Source of the DNA: Sphingomonadales bacterium
GTDB taxonomy: Bacteria > Pseudomonadota > Alphaproteobacteria > SMXS01
Reading direction: 5' to 3'
DNA length: 64,000 bases
Assembly: GCA_022844405.1 (NCBI GenBank)
Contig: JALHLV010000004.1
Coordinates: 1 to 64,000, forward strand
The notes under the pieces were generated by a model. The model was not told the DNA's origin. It saw only the letters and a program-made list of their open reading frames with translations, and ran no database searches. Positions 49,353-60,448 of this stretch are shown here, piece by piece. The position numbers and the translations under genes were made by a program. The stretch's first letter is position 1; each line of letters begins with the position of its first letter.

Positions 49353-49456
49353 CGTCATCCCGGCGAAGGCCGGGACCCAGACTCGACGAGTGGGTCGCGC
49401 GCTTCGCGCTGGTTTATTCGTATTGGTACTGGGTACCGCCCTTCGGCGGTATGACG
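49353..49456. repeat. REPIN-like inverted repeat doublet between cysS and gltX
   Basis: Two 28-bp copies lie in inverted orientation at 49353-49380 and 49429-49456. Both have the outer frame CGTCAT...ACCCAG or its complement. The inner stem differs by compensated changes: CCCGGC/GCCGGG in the left copy, ACCGCC/GGCGGT in the right. The pairing is preserved, which indicates selection on the hairpin. Confidence 0.8.
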
Positions 49457-54146: not shown

Positions 54147-55541
54147 TTATTCCGCCGCCTGCTTCAGCCGCGGCGCCGGCGTGCGCATGGTGACGAATTC
54201 CTCGGCGGCCGTCGGATGGATCGCGACCGTGGCGTCGAACTGGGCCTTGGTGGCGCCGCACTTGATGGCGATGCCGATGCCCTGGATGATCTCGCCAGCG
54301 TCGTGGCCGACCATGTGGGCGCCCAGCACCCGGTCGGTCTTCGCGTCGACGATCAGCTTCATCATGGTGCGCTCGCTCGACCCGCCCAGCGTATGCAGCA
54401 TGGGCCGGAAATCGGCCTTGTAGATGTCGATCTCGTCATAGCGCTCGCGCGCTTCCTCTTCGGTCAGGCCGCAGGTGCCGACCGGCGGCTGGGTGAACAC
54501 GGCGGTCGGGATGTCGCGGTAGTCCATGGTCGCCGGCCGGCCGCCGAACTGGGTGGCGGTGAACGCCATGGCCTCGGCGATGGCGACCGGCGTCAGCTGG
54601 AACCGGTGGGTGACGTCGCCCAGCGCGAAGATATTGGGCACGGAGGTGCGGAAGTCGTCGTCGATGACGATGGCGCCGATGTCGTCCAGCTTCACGCCCA
54701 CTTCCGCGAGACCCATCCCGCTGGTCTTGGGGTTGCGGCCGATGGCGTACATGACCGCGTCGATCTCGATGGTCGTGCCATTCGCCTGCGTCACCAGCAG
54801 GCTGCCGTCGGCCTGCCTGTCGATGCGCGCGATCAGCGAGCAGTTCACCCGCAGGTCGATGCCCTTCTTGCGCATTTCAGCGGCGACGGTGTCCCTGATA
54901 TCCTTGTCGAAGCCGCGCAGGATCTGCTCGCCCCGGTACAGCTGGATCACCTGCGAACCAAGGCCGTTGAAAATGCCGGCGAATTCGACGGCAATATAAC
55001 CGCCGCCCGCGATCAAAATCCGCTTCGGCAGCTCGGGCAGGTAGAACGCTTCGTTCGAGCTGATGGCATGCTCGCCGCCGGGGACGTCGGACATGGCCGG
55101 CCAGCCGCCGGTCGCCACCAGGATCTTGTCGGCGGTGACGCGGCCCACTTCCCTGCCGTCCTTGGTCAACGCGATGGTATGCGCGTCGACCAGCGCGGCG
55201 TGCGCCTCGTGCAGCACCACGTTGTTGTTCTTCAGGGTCTGGAGATAGAGGCCGTTGAGGCGGTCGATCTCCCTGTCCTTGTTGGCGATCAGCGTCGACC
55301 AGTCGAAACGCGCGCCCTCGATGGTCCAGCCATAGCCGTGCGCCCACTCGAACTCCTCGGCGAAGCCCGACGCGTAGACCAGCAGCTTCTTCGGCACGCA
55401 ACCGCGGATGACGCAGGTGCCGCCCACCCGGCTTTCCTCGGCGATGCCGACCCGCGCGCCATAGGACGACGCCATGCGCGCCGCCCGCACGCCGCCCGAG
55501 CCCGCGCCGATGATGAACAGGTCGTAATCGTAGTCAGCCAT
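54147..55541 (-). CDS. gor: Glutathione-disulfide reductase
   Basis: The 464-residue flavoprotein has the FAD motif [20 protein letters not shown], the redox cysteines in [13 protein letters not shown], an NADPH-binding [13 protein letters not shown], and the C-terminal catalytic His-Glu in [12 protein letters not shown]. It keeps glutathione reduced. Its first codons overlap the end of the HepT-like gene by 8 bp. Confidence 0.95.
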
Positions 55542-55875
55542 TCTTCTGGTCTCTTTCCACTTTGGCGATCAGATCGTCGATGACGGTCGCGCAGTCAGGA
55601 AGGTCCTGATCCACGATCGCCCATACTTCGGCTGACGTTACCTCATAGTACTGAAATTCAAGGCGCTCGCCGATCTTGGCGAGCCTGGCCCACAAATGTC
55701 CATGCCTCAGGTGAGGGGAAATGCGTTTGCTCGCCTCGTACAGGATCACCAAGTTACGCTCGACAGCATCTTCCGCCATCGACAGGTTCTTCTGATTGTC
55801 GGAAGCCGCGTAAGCGCCGATCCGGCCGACGGCAGCCTTCATATCGAGCAACGCCTGTGAATTGCTATTCCGCAT
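55534..55875 (-). CDS. HepT-like (DUF86) protein with altered catalytic motif
   Basis: The 113-residue helical protein resembles HepT/DUF86: MKAAVGRIGAYAA, SMAEDAVERNLVILYEASKR and YYEVTSAEVWAIVDQDLPD. HepT toxins use an R-N-x(3)-H-x-Y motif; here the equivalent region reads IGERLEFQYYEVTSAEVW, so the N and H are missing. No MNT antitoxin gene is adjacent. It may be a non-toxic relative or a decayed toxin. It overlaps the gor start. Confidence 0.7.
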   Translation of the reverse strand: MRNSNSQALLDMKAAVGRIGAYAASDNQKNLSMAEDAVERNLVILYEASKRISPHLRHGHLWARLAKIGERLEFQYYEVTSAEVWAIVDQDLPDCATVIDDLIAKVERDQKNG

Positions 55876-55950
55876 GGATTACCGCCACCGTGAGCAAGGA
55901 GTGCAATATGGCCGCCCTCGTACATTTACTCAACTGCCGAACCCCCCTCT

Positions 55951-55983
55951 TTGTCACCCCGGACCTGTTCCGGGGTCTGTCTC
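55951..55983. repeat. 33-bp palindromic repeat, flank of the GIY-YIG element
   Basis: This copy of a repeat with core CCCCGGACCTGTTCCGGGGT matches the reverse complement of 56304-56336 at 32 of 33 positions. The inner part is itself a palindrome. Confidence 0.85.
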
Positions 55984-55998
55984 TACGCGTGACGGCGC

Positions 55999-56286
55999 TT
56001 ACGGCGTGAGCACGATATCCTCCCAATGAGGATTGCGTTCCTCGACGAGATTGTACTTCCACTGGCGCACGTATCGTTTGAGTTGCTTCTCGCGCGCGAT
56101 TGCCATTCGCACATCTTGGAACACTTCGTAATAGACCAGCCGGTCTATGCCGTACTTCCTGGTATGGCCAGGGACGGCCTTGCTCTTGTGTTCCCACACA
56201 CGGCGCAGCAAATCGGAAGTCACGCCAACATACATCGCGCCTCGGGGGCGATTGGCGAGGATGTAGACATAGTACTGCTTGTACAT
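55999..56286 (-). CDS. GIY-YIG nuclease-domain protein, repeat-flanked
   Basis: The 95-residue protein has a single GIY-YIG domain: YYVYILANRPRGAMYVGVTS (the GIY and YIG elements as YVYIL and MYVGV), then DLLRRVWEHKSKAVPGHTRK with the conserved arginine, and the glutamate in IAREKQLKRYVRQWKYNLVE. It is a possible endonuclease of the YhbQ/UPF0213-like class. I chose ATG at 56286; an upstream start would only translate the flanking repeat. Inverted 33-bp repeats lie on both sides. Confidence 0.85.
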   Translation of the reverse strand: MYKQYYVYILANRPRGAMYVGVTSDLLRRVWEHKSKAVPGHTRKYGIDRLVYYEVFQDVRMAIAREKQLKRYVRQWKYNLVEERNPHWEDIVLTP

Positions 56287-56303
56287 GCAGTCGTGCCGAT
56301 ATC

Positions 56304-56336
56304 GAGACAGACCCCGGAACAAGTCCGGGGTGACAA
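56304..56336. repeat. 33-bp palindromic repeat, other flank of the GIY-YIG element
   Basis: This is the inverted partner of 55951-55983, differing at one position. It lies 17 bp upstream of the GIY-YIG start codon. Confidence 0.85.
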
Positions 56337-56376
56337 CCGAGGAACGCAACGGCCGAAGAAAGCGATCACCTAAAAT

Positions 56377-58203
56377 CTACTCAACCGTCACCGACTTCGC
56401 CAGATTCCGGGGCTGGTCCACGTCCGTCCCCTTGCTGACGGCGGCGTGGTAGGCCAGCAGCTGCACCGGGATCGCCTGCAGGATCGGGGCGACGAATTCG
56501 TGCATGTCGGGCAGCACCAGCGTCCAGGCGGCGCCGTCGCCGGCCGATTTCTCGCCCGCCACGTCGGTGACCAGTAGGATGCGGCCGCCGCGGGCGATGA
56601 CCTCGTGCATGTTGGACACGGTCTTGGCGAACAGCCGGTCGCTGGGCGCCAGCACCACCACCGGTACGGCCGGATCGATCAGCGCGATGGGACCGTGTTT
56701 CATCTCGCCGGCGGCATAGCCCTCGGCGTGGATGTAGGAGATTTCCTTCAGCTTCAGCGCGCCTTCGAGCGCGATCGGGTAGAGCGCGCCGCGGCCCAGA
56801 TAGAGTACGTCGCGCGCCTTGGCGATGTCGGCGGCGATGGTCTCGATCCGGTCGTCGTGCTTGAGCACCTCGGCCGCCGCCTTGGGCACCTCGACCAGCG
56901 CGTGGGTCAGTTCGGCCTCGGTCGCCGCGTCGATGGTGCCGCGCGCCCGCGCCGTGGCGACGGCAAGGCACGCCAGCACCACAAGCTGGCAGGTGAACGC
57001 CTTGGTGCTGGCGACGCCGATCTCCGGCCCTGCGTGCGTCGGCAGCACCACGTCCGATTCCCGGGCGATGGAACTTTCCGGCACGTTGACGACGCTGAGG
57101 ATGTGCTGGCCCTGCTCGCGGCAATAGCGCAGCGCGGCGAGCGTGTCGGCGGTCTCGCCCGACTGGGAGACGAAGATGGCGAGCCCGCCGGCGGGCAGCG
57201 CCGCCTCGCGGTAGCGGAACTCCGACGCCACGTCGATCTCGACGCTGACTCGGGCGATCCGCTCGAACCAGTATTTGGCGACCATGCAGGCGTAGAACGC
57301 CGTGCCGCACGCCACCATGGTGATCTTCGGCACCGCGGCGATGTCGAACGGCATGGCCGGCATCACCACTTCGCGGCTGAGCGCGTTGTAATAGGTGCCG
57401 AGCGTGTCGCCGATCACCGCCGGCTGCTCGAAGATCTCCTTCTGCATGAAGTGGCGGTAGTTGCCCTTCTCGATCAGGCCGCCGACCAGCTTGGCCAGCT
57501 TGATCTCCCGCTGCACCACCGCGCCGCTCTCCTCGTGGATCACCGCGCTCGTGCGCGTCAACTCGACCCAGTCGCCTTCCGCCAGGTAGCAGATGCGGTT
57601 CGACAGCGGCCCGATGGCCAGCGCGTCCGAGCCCAGATACATTTCGCCGTCGCCGTAACCGACGACCAGCGGGCTGCCGCGCCGGGCGCCGATCAGCAGG
57701 TCACCGTGCTCGGCGAACAGAATGCCGATGGCGAACGCGCCGTCGAGGCGCTTGAGCGCCGCGGCCGCCGCCTGCTGAGGCGTCGCGCCCCGGTCCAGTT
57801 CGGCGGTGACCAGATGGGCGATGACCTCGCTGTCGGTCTCGGTCACCATGACGTAGCCCTGCGCGGTCAGTTCTTCGCGCAGCTCGCGGAAGTTCTCGAT
57901 AATGCCGTTATGCACCACCGCCACCTTTTCAGTGGCATGTGGATGGGCATTGTTCTCGTTCGGCGCGCCGTGGGTCGCCCATCTTGTGTGGGCGATGCCG
58001 ACGGTCCCCGGCAGCGGGCTGGCGTCCAGCACCTTGCGCAGATTGCCCAGCTTGCCCTCGGCGCGGCGGCGGTCGATGGCGCCGCCGTCCGGCAGGGTGG
58101 CGACACCCGCCGAATCGTAGCCGCGGTATTCCAGCCGCTGCAGCCCCTCGACCAGCCGCGGCGTCACCGCCTCACGGCCAACGATACCGACGATGCCGCA
58201 CAT
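56377..58203 (-). CDS. glmS: Glutamine-fructose-6-phosphate aminotransferase (isomerizing)
   Basis: The 608-residue GlmS makes glucosamine 6-phosphate for cell-wall precursors. Cys2 is the glutaminase nucleophile (MCGIVGIVGREAV). The sugar-binding SIS domains include SQSGETADTLAALRYCREQG and GRGALYPIALEGALKLKEIS, and the C-terminus ends RNLAKSVTVE. Its ATG directly follows the glmU TGA, so they are co-translated. No glmS ribozyme is expected or seen. Confidence 0.97.
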   Translation of the reverse strand: MCGIVGIVGREAVTPRLVEGLQRLEYRGYDSAGVATLPDGGAIDRRRAEGKLGNLRKVLDASPLPGTVGIAHTRWATHGAPNENNAHPHATEKVAVVHNGIIENFRELREELTAQGYVMVTETDSEVIAHLVTAELDRGATPQQAAAAALKRLDGAFAIGILFAEHGDLLIGARRGSPLVVGYGDGEMYLGSDALAIGPLSNRICYLAEGDWVELTRTSAVIHEESGAVVQREIKLAKLVGGLIEKGNYRHFMQKEIFEQPAVIGDTLGTYYNALSREVVMPAMPFDIAAVPKITMVACGTAFYACMVAKYWFERIARVSVEIDVASEFRYREAALPAGGLAIFVSQSGETADTLAALRYCREQGQHILSVVNVPESSIARESDVVLPTHAGPEIGVASTKAFTCQLVVLACLAVATARARGTIDAATEAELTHALVEVPKAAAEVLKHDDRIETIAADIAKARDVLYLGRGALYPIALEGALKLKEISYIHAEGYAAGEMKHGPIALIDPAVPVVVLAPSDRLFAKTVSNMHEVIARGGRILLVTDVAGEKSAGDGAAWTLVLPDMHEFVAPILQAIPVQLLAYHAAVSKGTDVDQPRNLAKSVTVE

Positions 58204-60343: not shown

Positions 60344-60448
60344 CGTCATCGCGAGGAGCGAAGCGACGCGGCGACCCAGTCCACCCGCGGGTTACGGCGA
60401 CTGAAGAAAGAGCTGGGTTGCCGCGCCCCTGCGGGTCTCGCAATGACG
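60344..60448. repeat. REPIN-like inverted repeat doublet after gph
   Basis: Two 36-bp arms at 60344-60379 and 60413-60448 face each other. Both have the frame CGTCAT-x-GCGAG ... CGCGGC-x-ACCCAG, or its complement, around different inner hairpins. The CGTCAT(T/C)GCGAG type is frequent in alphaproteobacterial genomes. It lies between gph and the tRNA gene. Confidence 0.75.

Follow-up and report, generated by a model that had tools for sequence, protein, structure and literature searches.

A palindrome-framed GIY-YIG nuclease gene of Sphingomonadales with the behaviour of a minimal mobile unit

A 386-bp unit, consisting of a stand-alone gene for a small GIY-YIG nuclease between two inverted copies of one palindrome, lies at the glmS–gor junction in the 64,000-nucleotide stretch of Sphingomonadales DNA analysed here (contig JALHLV010000004.1 of assembly GCA_022844405.1; the window). 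Within the genus, this unit and its relatives occur in full, gene-less, solo-palindrome and empty states, and one element type occupies different sites; the unit therefore behaves as a mobile, REPIN-like entity, and there is good support for describing it as a minimal mobile unit framed by repeats. On balance, we favour the view that it is an autonomous copy of a mobile element which is framed by palindromes and has a single gene, the product of which, a GIY-YIG nuclease, is specific for the palindrome of its own element, and we infer that the nuclease itself drives the movement.

The unit and its nuclease

The first-pass annotation had described a 95-residue GIY-YIG gene between 33-bp inverted repeats, matching at 32 of 33 positions and each palindromic, and its coordinates, match and hairpins were all verified (Table 1). 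The two arms, 33 nt each, 97% complementary and 320 nt apart, are both hairpins with an 8-bp stem and a 5-nt loop; in the left arm, as read from the sequence, ACCCCGGA (55956–55963) pairs with TCCGGGGT (55969–55976) around the loop CCTGT. An alternative frame of the nuclease gene starting at TTG extends to 56349 and crosses the right palindrome. The inverted-repeat score of the pair was 61, and none of 410 other (overlapping) sliding positions in the window reached 34, a background on which chance or terminator hairpins were rejected. The core pattern, with up to two mismatches, gave four matches (both strands of the two arms) compared to 0.45 expected, and the only two exact matches to CCCCGGAMYTGNTCCGGGG in the 3.78-Mb genome (G000) are those at the unit. 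No known RNA family matched positions 55800–56500 at E ≤ 1. A HepT-like gene (55534–55875; PF01934, 4.9e-9) adjoins the unit and is present at the glmS–gor junction in only two (G000 and G001) of seven genus genomes.

Table 1. Positions of the palindrome-framed unit, its parts and its conserved neighbours in the window
Feature	Position	Strand	Remarks
Left palindrome	55951..55983	+	Past the 3' end of the nuclease gene; outer tag TTGTC, inner tail CTGTCTC
Right palindrome	56304..56336	-	Inverted copy of the left palindrome, 32/33; CGTC-like tag outward
GIY-YIG nuclease gene, stand-alone	55999..56286	-	95 aa, ATG start
Whole unit, palindrome-gene-palindrome	55951..56336	.	386 bp
glmS	56377..58203	-	Named from sequence; conserved neighbour, anchor for empty-site comparison
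gor-like pyridine-nucleotide disulphide oxidoreductase gene	54147..55541	-	Named from sequence; conserved neighbour, anchor

The encoded protein matches PF01541 at 2.3e-15, and Y8, Y19, G21, R29, E66 and N85 are invariant across 36 sequences; in GIY-YIG enzymes it is known which of the conserved residues are catalytic. Its AlphaFold model has a pLDDT of 92.9. In a Foldseek search with this model, the UPF0213 structure 1zg2 (2.4e-4) was the sole PDB fold match at or below 0.001, followed by weaker matches to 1ywl (0.016) and to Slx1 (from 0.023), with the UvrC domain above 1; 1zg2 was also the sole match at E ≤ 0.01 in a PDB sequence search (1.3e-5). The protein has both the fold and the conserved Y, Y, R, E and N of a GIY-YIG nuclease, and is alike in sequence and fold to the small UPF0213 GIY-YIG proteins. 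A group I intron endonuclease identity was rejected, as the NCBIfam match scored 21.8 bits against a cut-off of 56.05. Free-standing GIY-YIG homing endonucleases are selfish nuclease genes located at their own targets, an arrangement that the window unit would share, the target here being a short intergenic palindrome.

The arms can also be compared with CGTC-tagged REPs. According to the available text of a 2013 survey (Di Nocera et al., PMC3733652), every alphaproteobacterial order examined contains CGTC REPs, which are defined by an unpaired CGTC (or TGTC/CCTC) tag at one end, a stem of 8–9 bp and a loop of 4–5 nt, with a stem that almost invariably starts with AT and, in most, a CCA tail; the Neisseriae CGTC-1 repeats are equated there with dRS3. 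As judged against that text, the window palindrome shares the [CT]GTC tag (both outer ends of the unit read TTGTC), the 8-bp stem, the 5-nt loop, the inverted pairs and the abundance in alphaproteobacteria, and deviates in a stem that starts with AC, not AT, and a tail that reads CTG, not CCA; many related loci read CGTCAT...ATCCA, with the AT start and the CCA tail. The many genomic copies that characterize CGTC REPs were not found in G000, which has two; the congener G003 has 17 at no more than one mismatch. The same text indicates that no dedicated transposase seems to exist for CGTC REPs, whereas the hairpins studied here often frame members of one nuclease subfamily.

Elements, alleles and gene-less pairs within the genus

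The window unit is not alone in its genome. G000 contains nine GIY-YIG loci, seven of which have a palindrome on at least one side. Six genes (L002 to L007), the window gene and five others, each lie between inverted repeats of their own, in six different sequences of which the L006 and L007 types are related; examples of the framing palindromes are CGTCATCCCCGCGCACGCGGGGACCCAG and CGTCATTGCGAGGAGCGCAGCGACGCGGCAACCCAG, and the L002 repeats are the weakest of the set (score 41). The window unit therefore belongs to a set. At L001, an inverted pair of the CCCTGAGCTTGTCGAAGGG type lies downstream of the gene and none upstream, and uvrC (L008) and one small gene (L009) have no palindromes. Two gene-less pairs were seen elsewhere in the window. 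One, at 49353–49456, is of another CGTC-type palindrome (CGTCATCCCGGCGAAGGCCGGGACCCAG, with partner CGTCATACCGCC...) that is near the type framing the nuclease L106 in G001; the other, at 60344–60448 between gph and a tRNA gene, is of the CGTCATCGCGAGGAGCGAAGCGACGCGG type found around L006. The gph–tRNA spot carries a CGTCATTGCGAG-type pair in G000, a pair of the window-unit type in G003 and a degenerate pair in G002.

We compared the seven genomes of the genus (G000 to G006) at orthologous sites. Three genomes, G000, G001 and G004, have the full unit at the glmS–gor junction. In G005, the junction holds one near-symmetrical palindrome, TTGTCACACCGGTCTTGTTCCGGGGTGGCAA, and in G003 the remnant of half a palindrome. 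G002 has a palindrome, a gene judged by eye to be MNT-like and framed by palindromes, and a gene-less pair. G006 has another GIY-YIG gene here, which is frame-shifted, lies on the opposite strand and is accompanied by a palindrome of its own. At the L006 site, the element is full in G000 and reduced to a gene-less cognate pair in G001, and the cognate palindrome is absent from G003, G005 and G006 (G002 is not alignable past the flank and G004 is not covered). The L007 site is full in G000, has one symmetrical palindrome in G001 and lacks the cognate palindrome in G005 and G002, with G003, G004 and G006 differing past the flank. At the L004 site, G000, G004 and G002 have the full element, G006 has a complete copy in the opposite orientation, and G005 has a gene-less cognate pair; G003 has a pair of another palindrome type at this site, and G001 shows the start of that type near a contig end. 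G001 has its L004-like element, L083, at another site, and homology between L083 and L004 is confined to the element; at the matching site, G003 has one cognate palindrome that is nearly symmetrical, and no proper flank match was obtained in the remaining five genomes. The L106 site is full in G001, carries no element in G005 and G002 and other sequence in G000, G003 and G004, and has no match in G006. The L024 site is full in G005 and G004, carries no element in G003 and G002, and has no match in the other three genomes. A 479-bp stretch that includes the element at L021 and L024 is 97% identical between G004 and G005, compared to 91% for the DNA beyond it, hinting at a possible recent exchange between species.

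At three sites, the alternative to the full unit is one palindrome built of the two outer halves, and homology between copies at different sites stops at or near the palindromes. Solo alleles can be explained as loss products alone. The order of solo and full states may run either way, as the genus tree places G002 and G006 far out and leaves G000, G003 and the G001+G004 pair nearly unresolved (support 0.788). Comparison of the junction between congeners, which the first-pass annotation had proposed as a search for an empty hepT–glmS site, gave full, solo, remnant, gene-less and other-element states and no exact empty site: because congeners differ by ~5–23%, neither such a site nor a target-site duplication is readable, and no short direct repeats outside the inverted ends were evident by eye.

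The window palindrome also occurs apart from the gene. With at most one mismatch, it was found in 12 of 116 genomes, and a reversed control pattern in none. Copy numbers in the genus are 2 (G000), 11 (G001), 5 (G002), 17 (G003), 9 (G004), 0 (G005) and 7 (G006), and outside it G021 has 39 copies and G113 has 19. In relatives, the repeat thus extends beyond this gene: the six congeners of G000 have between 0 and 17 copies each, many of them in gene-less pairs. Across the genus, no clear relation was seen between copy number and presence of the nuclease. An intact L003-like nuclease is absent among the matches listed for G003 (17 palindromes), G006 (7) and G002 (5): none of the four listed GIY-YIG matches of G003 is cognate, and in G006 only the frame-shifted relative at glmS was seen. 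G000 has an intact nuclease, yet only its own two palindrome copies.

Thirteen gene-less inverted pairs were read in G001, G003 and G004 (L178–L193), and outnumber the three gene-bearing pairs of the window palindrome. The spacing of the palindromes is 100–108 bp in ten pairs, 64 bp in one and ~210 bp in two. After removal of palindromes and tails, 2 of 77 non-orthologous spacer comparisons were strongly alike (L189/L190 and L192/L193); relative to simple shuffles, 7 of 77 had p ≤ 0.005 and 13 of 77 had p ≤ 0.05. Related spacers were rejected as an explanation of the 73–83% matches between gene-less pairs, which come largely from the palindromes themselves. Because the spacers are mostly unrelated, most gene-less pairs show no visible descent from the gene-bearing unit. 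Thus, gene-less inverted pairs of the same palindrome do occur elsewhere, as in REPIN-like systems, and spacers that are related or derived from the unit were not found; the inner ends of the G002 pair at glmS–gor resemble those of the window unit by eye. The pairs follow a length rule (10 of 13 spaced by 100–108 bp) without a sequence rule. In L192 (~964–1196) and L193 (~961–1191), window-type pairs ~210 bp apart enclose a nested inverted pair of the GCGAGCGAAGCG type.

Nuclease subfamilies and palindrome families across bacteria

We searched 116 alphaproteobacterial genomes with PF01541 and fetched the loci of the matches listed, among which 116 stand-alone loci had an open frame of at most 450 aa; loci with too little flank fell outside the hairpin counts. 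An inverted-repeat score of at least 40 was found at 41 of these 116 listed loci, compared to 0 of 20 true uvrC genes, 1 of 266 shifted positions, 20 of 2820 mismatched cross-genome pairs and 2 of 54 mismatched pairs from the same genome. The uvrC control fell from 21 scored loci to 20 on removal of L093, which had been classed as uvrC by frame length and is a small GIY-YIG gene.

A stricter test required a CGTC-type hairpin (GTCA[TC], 8-bp stem, at most one mismatch) on both sides. Such hairpins flank 31 of the 64 listed genes whose products, like that of the window gene, have N-P-x-W at the C terminus, with outward tags on both sides at 28 of the 31; none was found at 52 other small GIY-YIG genes (including L101, which reads D-P-x-W) or at 20 uvrC genes, and one at 227 shifted positions. 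A different palindrome, GTCGAAG/CTCAGG, occurs on both sides of 9 of the 52 other small GIY-YIG genes, all nine inside a subgroup of 21, and at 0 of 64 N-P-x-W genes and 0 of 101 shifted positions. Two nuclease subfamilies and two palindrome families thus show a double dissociation. Protein identity and palindrome similarity covary across 46 loci (Mantel rho 0.44; 0 of 2000 permutations as high), and still do so for pairs below 60% identity (rho 0.34; 0 of 2000), the permutation figures being a guide only, as the sequences are related; L115, L017 and L092, judged by eye to have repeats that are not hairpin-like, were left out. The expectation that the palindrome flanks each family copy and covaries with the protein was thus borne out for the covariation and in part for the flanking, which is two-sided at 31 of 64 genes and involves palindromes that differ by locus.

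A cross-phylum scan with one genome per species gave at least 574 relatives, of which the best 80 were kept; L286, whose 'repeat' is a run of N, was excluded, leaving 79 loci. Among these best matches, CGTC hairpins are present on both sides at 48 of 79 loci, on one side at 19 and on neither at 12, compared to 2 of 151 shifted positions with hairpins on both sides. By record title, the 48 come from Pseudomonadota, Desulfobacteraceae, Nitrospirae (L249), Planctomycetes (L242, L274), Chloroflexi (L251, L257), Bacteroidetes (L273), Elusimicrobia (L293), Nitrospinota (L312) and Patescibacteria (for example, L238 and L258), and the 12 include a member of Zixiibacteriota (L285) and a Firmicute (L300). 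Scores of at least 40 were obtained for 38 of 79 true pairs of arms and for 114 of 1188 mismatched pairs; as mismatched pairs match often too, arm matching in this set is no evidence of cognate pairing.

Relatives were also found on 39 IMG/VR viral contigs, several of them near copies of one another; 36 had enough flank, and hairpins were two-sided in 26 of these, compared to 0 of 67 shifted positions. A tblastn search of phage records with the window protein gave no match. Thirty-three plasmid records contain a relative, and six were fetched. In Azospirillum lipoferum 4B (L372, 1370–1986), the gene has CGTC pairs on both sides and lies between sufB and sufC in a sufBCD row, and CGTC-type inverted repeats accompany the Rhizobium and Sinorhizobium copies. 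On a gonococcal record that is apparently a chromosome filed as a plasmid, a relative with 44% identity lies inside an array of CGTCATTCCCGCG hairpins. The Novosphingobium copy, inside a 31-bp perfect inverted repeat (CGTCGCCCCG...), fails the CGTC hairpin rule, and the Planktothrix copy has only an imperfect pair at some distance.

Explanations for the framing and movement of the gene

REP/REPIN systems with their RAYT (TnpA-REP) enzymes share with the loci described here dispersed single and paired palindromes, one framed gene, and paired types of protein and repeat; in both, repeats are present where the enzyme is absent. They differ in the enzyme and the tag: RAYT is an HUH Y1 transposase associated with GTAG-tagged repeats in the available text of PMC3733652, whereas the gene framed here, where a REPtron would have a Y1 gene, encodes a GIY-YIG protein, and the tag is CGTC-like. 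Among the papers listed by literature searches with partial open-access coverage, none linked GIY-YIG nucleases to REP or CGTC palindromes, which leaves absence from print unproven, and neither mobile, REPIN-like behaviour nor the two-subfamily dissociation nor a general tie to CGTC REPs was found there; the available part of PMC12306157 has no occurrence of GIY-YIG, nuclease or RAYT.

A further point of comparison is Ssn. The Ssn proteins, reportedly described in Nature Communications in 2025, are said to be GIY-YIG single-strand nucleases that cut single-stranded Neisseria repeats and modulate transformation, and the gonococcal N-P-x-W relative is probably this enzyme. Ssn is a small stand-alone GIY-YIG protein like that of the window, and cognate repeats surround the gene in both cases, as palindromes at the window gene and as hairpins at the gonococcal relative. 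The nuclease family and the idea of a cognate repeat are probably already known; mobility, gene-less pairs, solo and full alleles and covariation may be what is added here relative to Ssn, and may overlap with work in print.

Given this resemblance, the palindrome-framed nuclease could be a host-serving, Ssn-like enzyme that acts on incoming or replicating DNA at palindrome marks, for example to limit transformation, with a flanking pair that regulates or insulates the gene and with mobility incidental. The position of the gonococcal relative inside its hairpin array and the reported activity of Ssn fit such a role. In G003 and G002, the palindromes have no cognate nuclease, which fits marks spread by something else. 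Presence/absence variation, gene-less and solo alleles, inversion and relocation, however, look selfish and unlike housekeeping, as do the several distinct elements per genome (nine loci in G000, seven with palindromes) and the relatives on viral contigs, and we consider a host-serving role unlikely, if worth continued attention. It is improbable, in our view, that a RAYT or other transposase spreads the palindromes, with the GIY-YIG gene as a passenger that two copies happen to enclose. Y1 transposases are present in four of the seven genus genomes, and the excess of gene-less over gene-bearing pairs (13 to 3), with mostly unrelated spacers, is in line with a passenger; against this, none of seven Y1 loci has a CGTC hairpin within 550 bp, no Y1 match was found in G003 or G001, the genomes of the genus with the most copies of the palindrome, and neither covariation with the palindrome nor strong enrichment is expected of a passenger. 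Six of these seven Y1 loci (L364–L369) carry an inverted repeat with the core CGGTGACAG and so form TIRYT-like units, and the seventh carries a different repeat. Mobilization by RAYT was rejected on the lack of association between Y1 loci and CGTC hairpins (0 of 7; Y1 family only). It is hardly credible that a resident gene is simply flanked by ordinary bidirectional terminators, or by hairpins that arose by chance: the arms are indeed G+C-rich intergenic hairpins, but they match over 33 bp including the tail when none of 410 window positions does so, gene-less copies exist, different palindromes occupy the same spot, and no T-run was seen after the hairpins in the sequence.

The first-pass annotation's reading of the 386-bp unit as a minimal mobile or repeat-spreading element is upheld by orthologous presence/absence, gene-less pairs, relocation and covariation. 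Its suggestion that a GIY-YIG nuclease stands in the place of RAYT holds for the association (0 of 7 Y1 loci with CGTC hairpins, and two palindrome-richest congeners without Y1) and remains inferential for movement by the nuclease. Both kinds of observation that it had named as counting against the element occur to some extent, in that 33 of 64 N-P-x-W genes have no two-sided CGTC hairpin by the strict test, and G003 has 17 palindromes and no cognate among its four listed GIY-YIG matches. The nuclease-less palindromes of G003 and G002, the nuclease of G000 alone with its own pair, the roughly half of genes without clear pairs, and the gene-less pairs, most of which show no visible origin in the unit, all argue against tight coupling. 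We read genes without pairs and palindromes without a nuclease as decay and loss; they are still facts against strict coupling.

If the favoured reading of an autonomous element is correct, its nuclease would recognize and cut its own palindrome, which would probably be in the form of a single-stranded DNA hairpin, much as is said of Ssn. GIY-YIG enzymes hydrolyse DNA, and joining is not among their known activities; therefore, insertion needs host repair. As the palindrome core reads alike on both strands, it could serve as both a direct and an inverted repeat in host repair of the cut, which may remove the gene and leave one symmetrical palindrome, invert the gene, or place a copy of a unit, with or without the gene, in a solo palindrome that has been cut at another site. 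Movement of gene-less pairs would be in trans, similar to the proposed mobilization of REPINs by RAYTs. More broadly, and with somewhat more doubt than confidence, we propose that the N-P-x-W GIY-YIG subfamily is the missing dedicated enzyme of CGTC REPs and constitutes a second, HUH-independent class of selfish REP-spreading systems across many phyla, which would home by palindrome cutting and host-repair copying, with the sister subfamily acting likewise for GTCGAAG/CTCAGG palindromes.

The 2013 survey, in its available text, left the enzyme of CGTC REPs open (PMC3733652), and a nuclease subfamily that is often framed by palindromes, covaries with them and has solo, paired and full alleles at shared sites is a direct candidate. 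If this is true, small hydrolytic nucleases, besides HUH transposases, can drive the spread of repeats, and the family offers a natural set of matched nuclease–target pairs for learning how a GIY-YIG protein of ~95 residues chooses its sequence.
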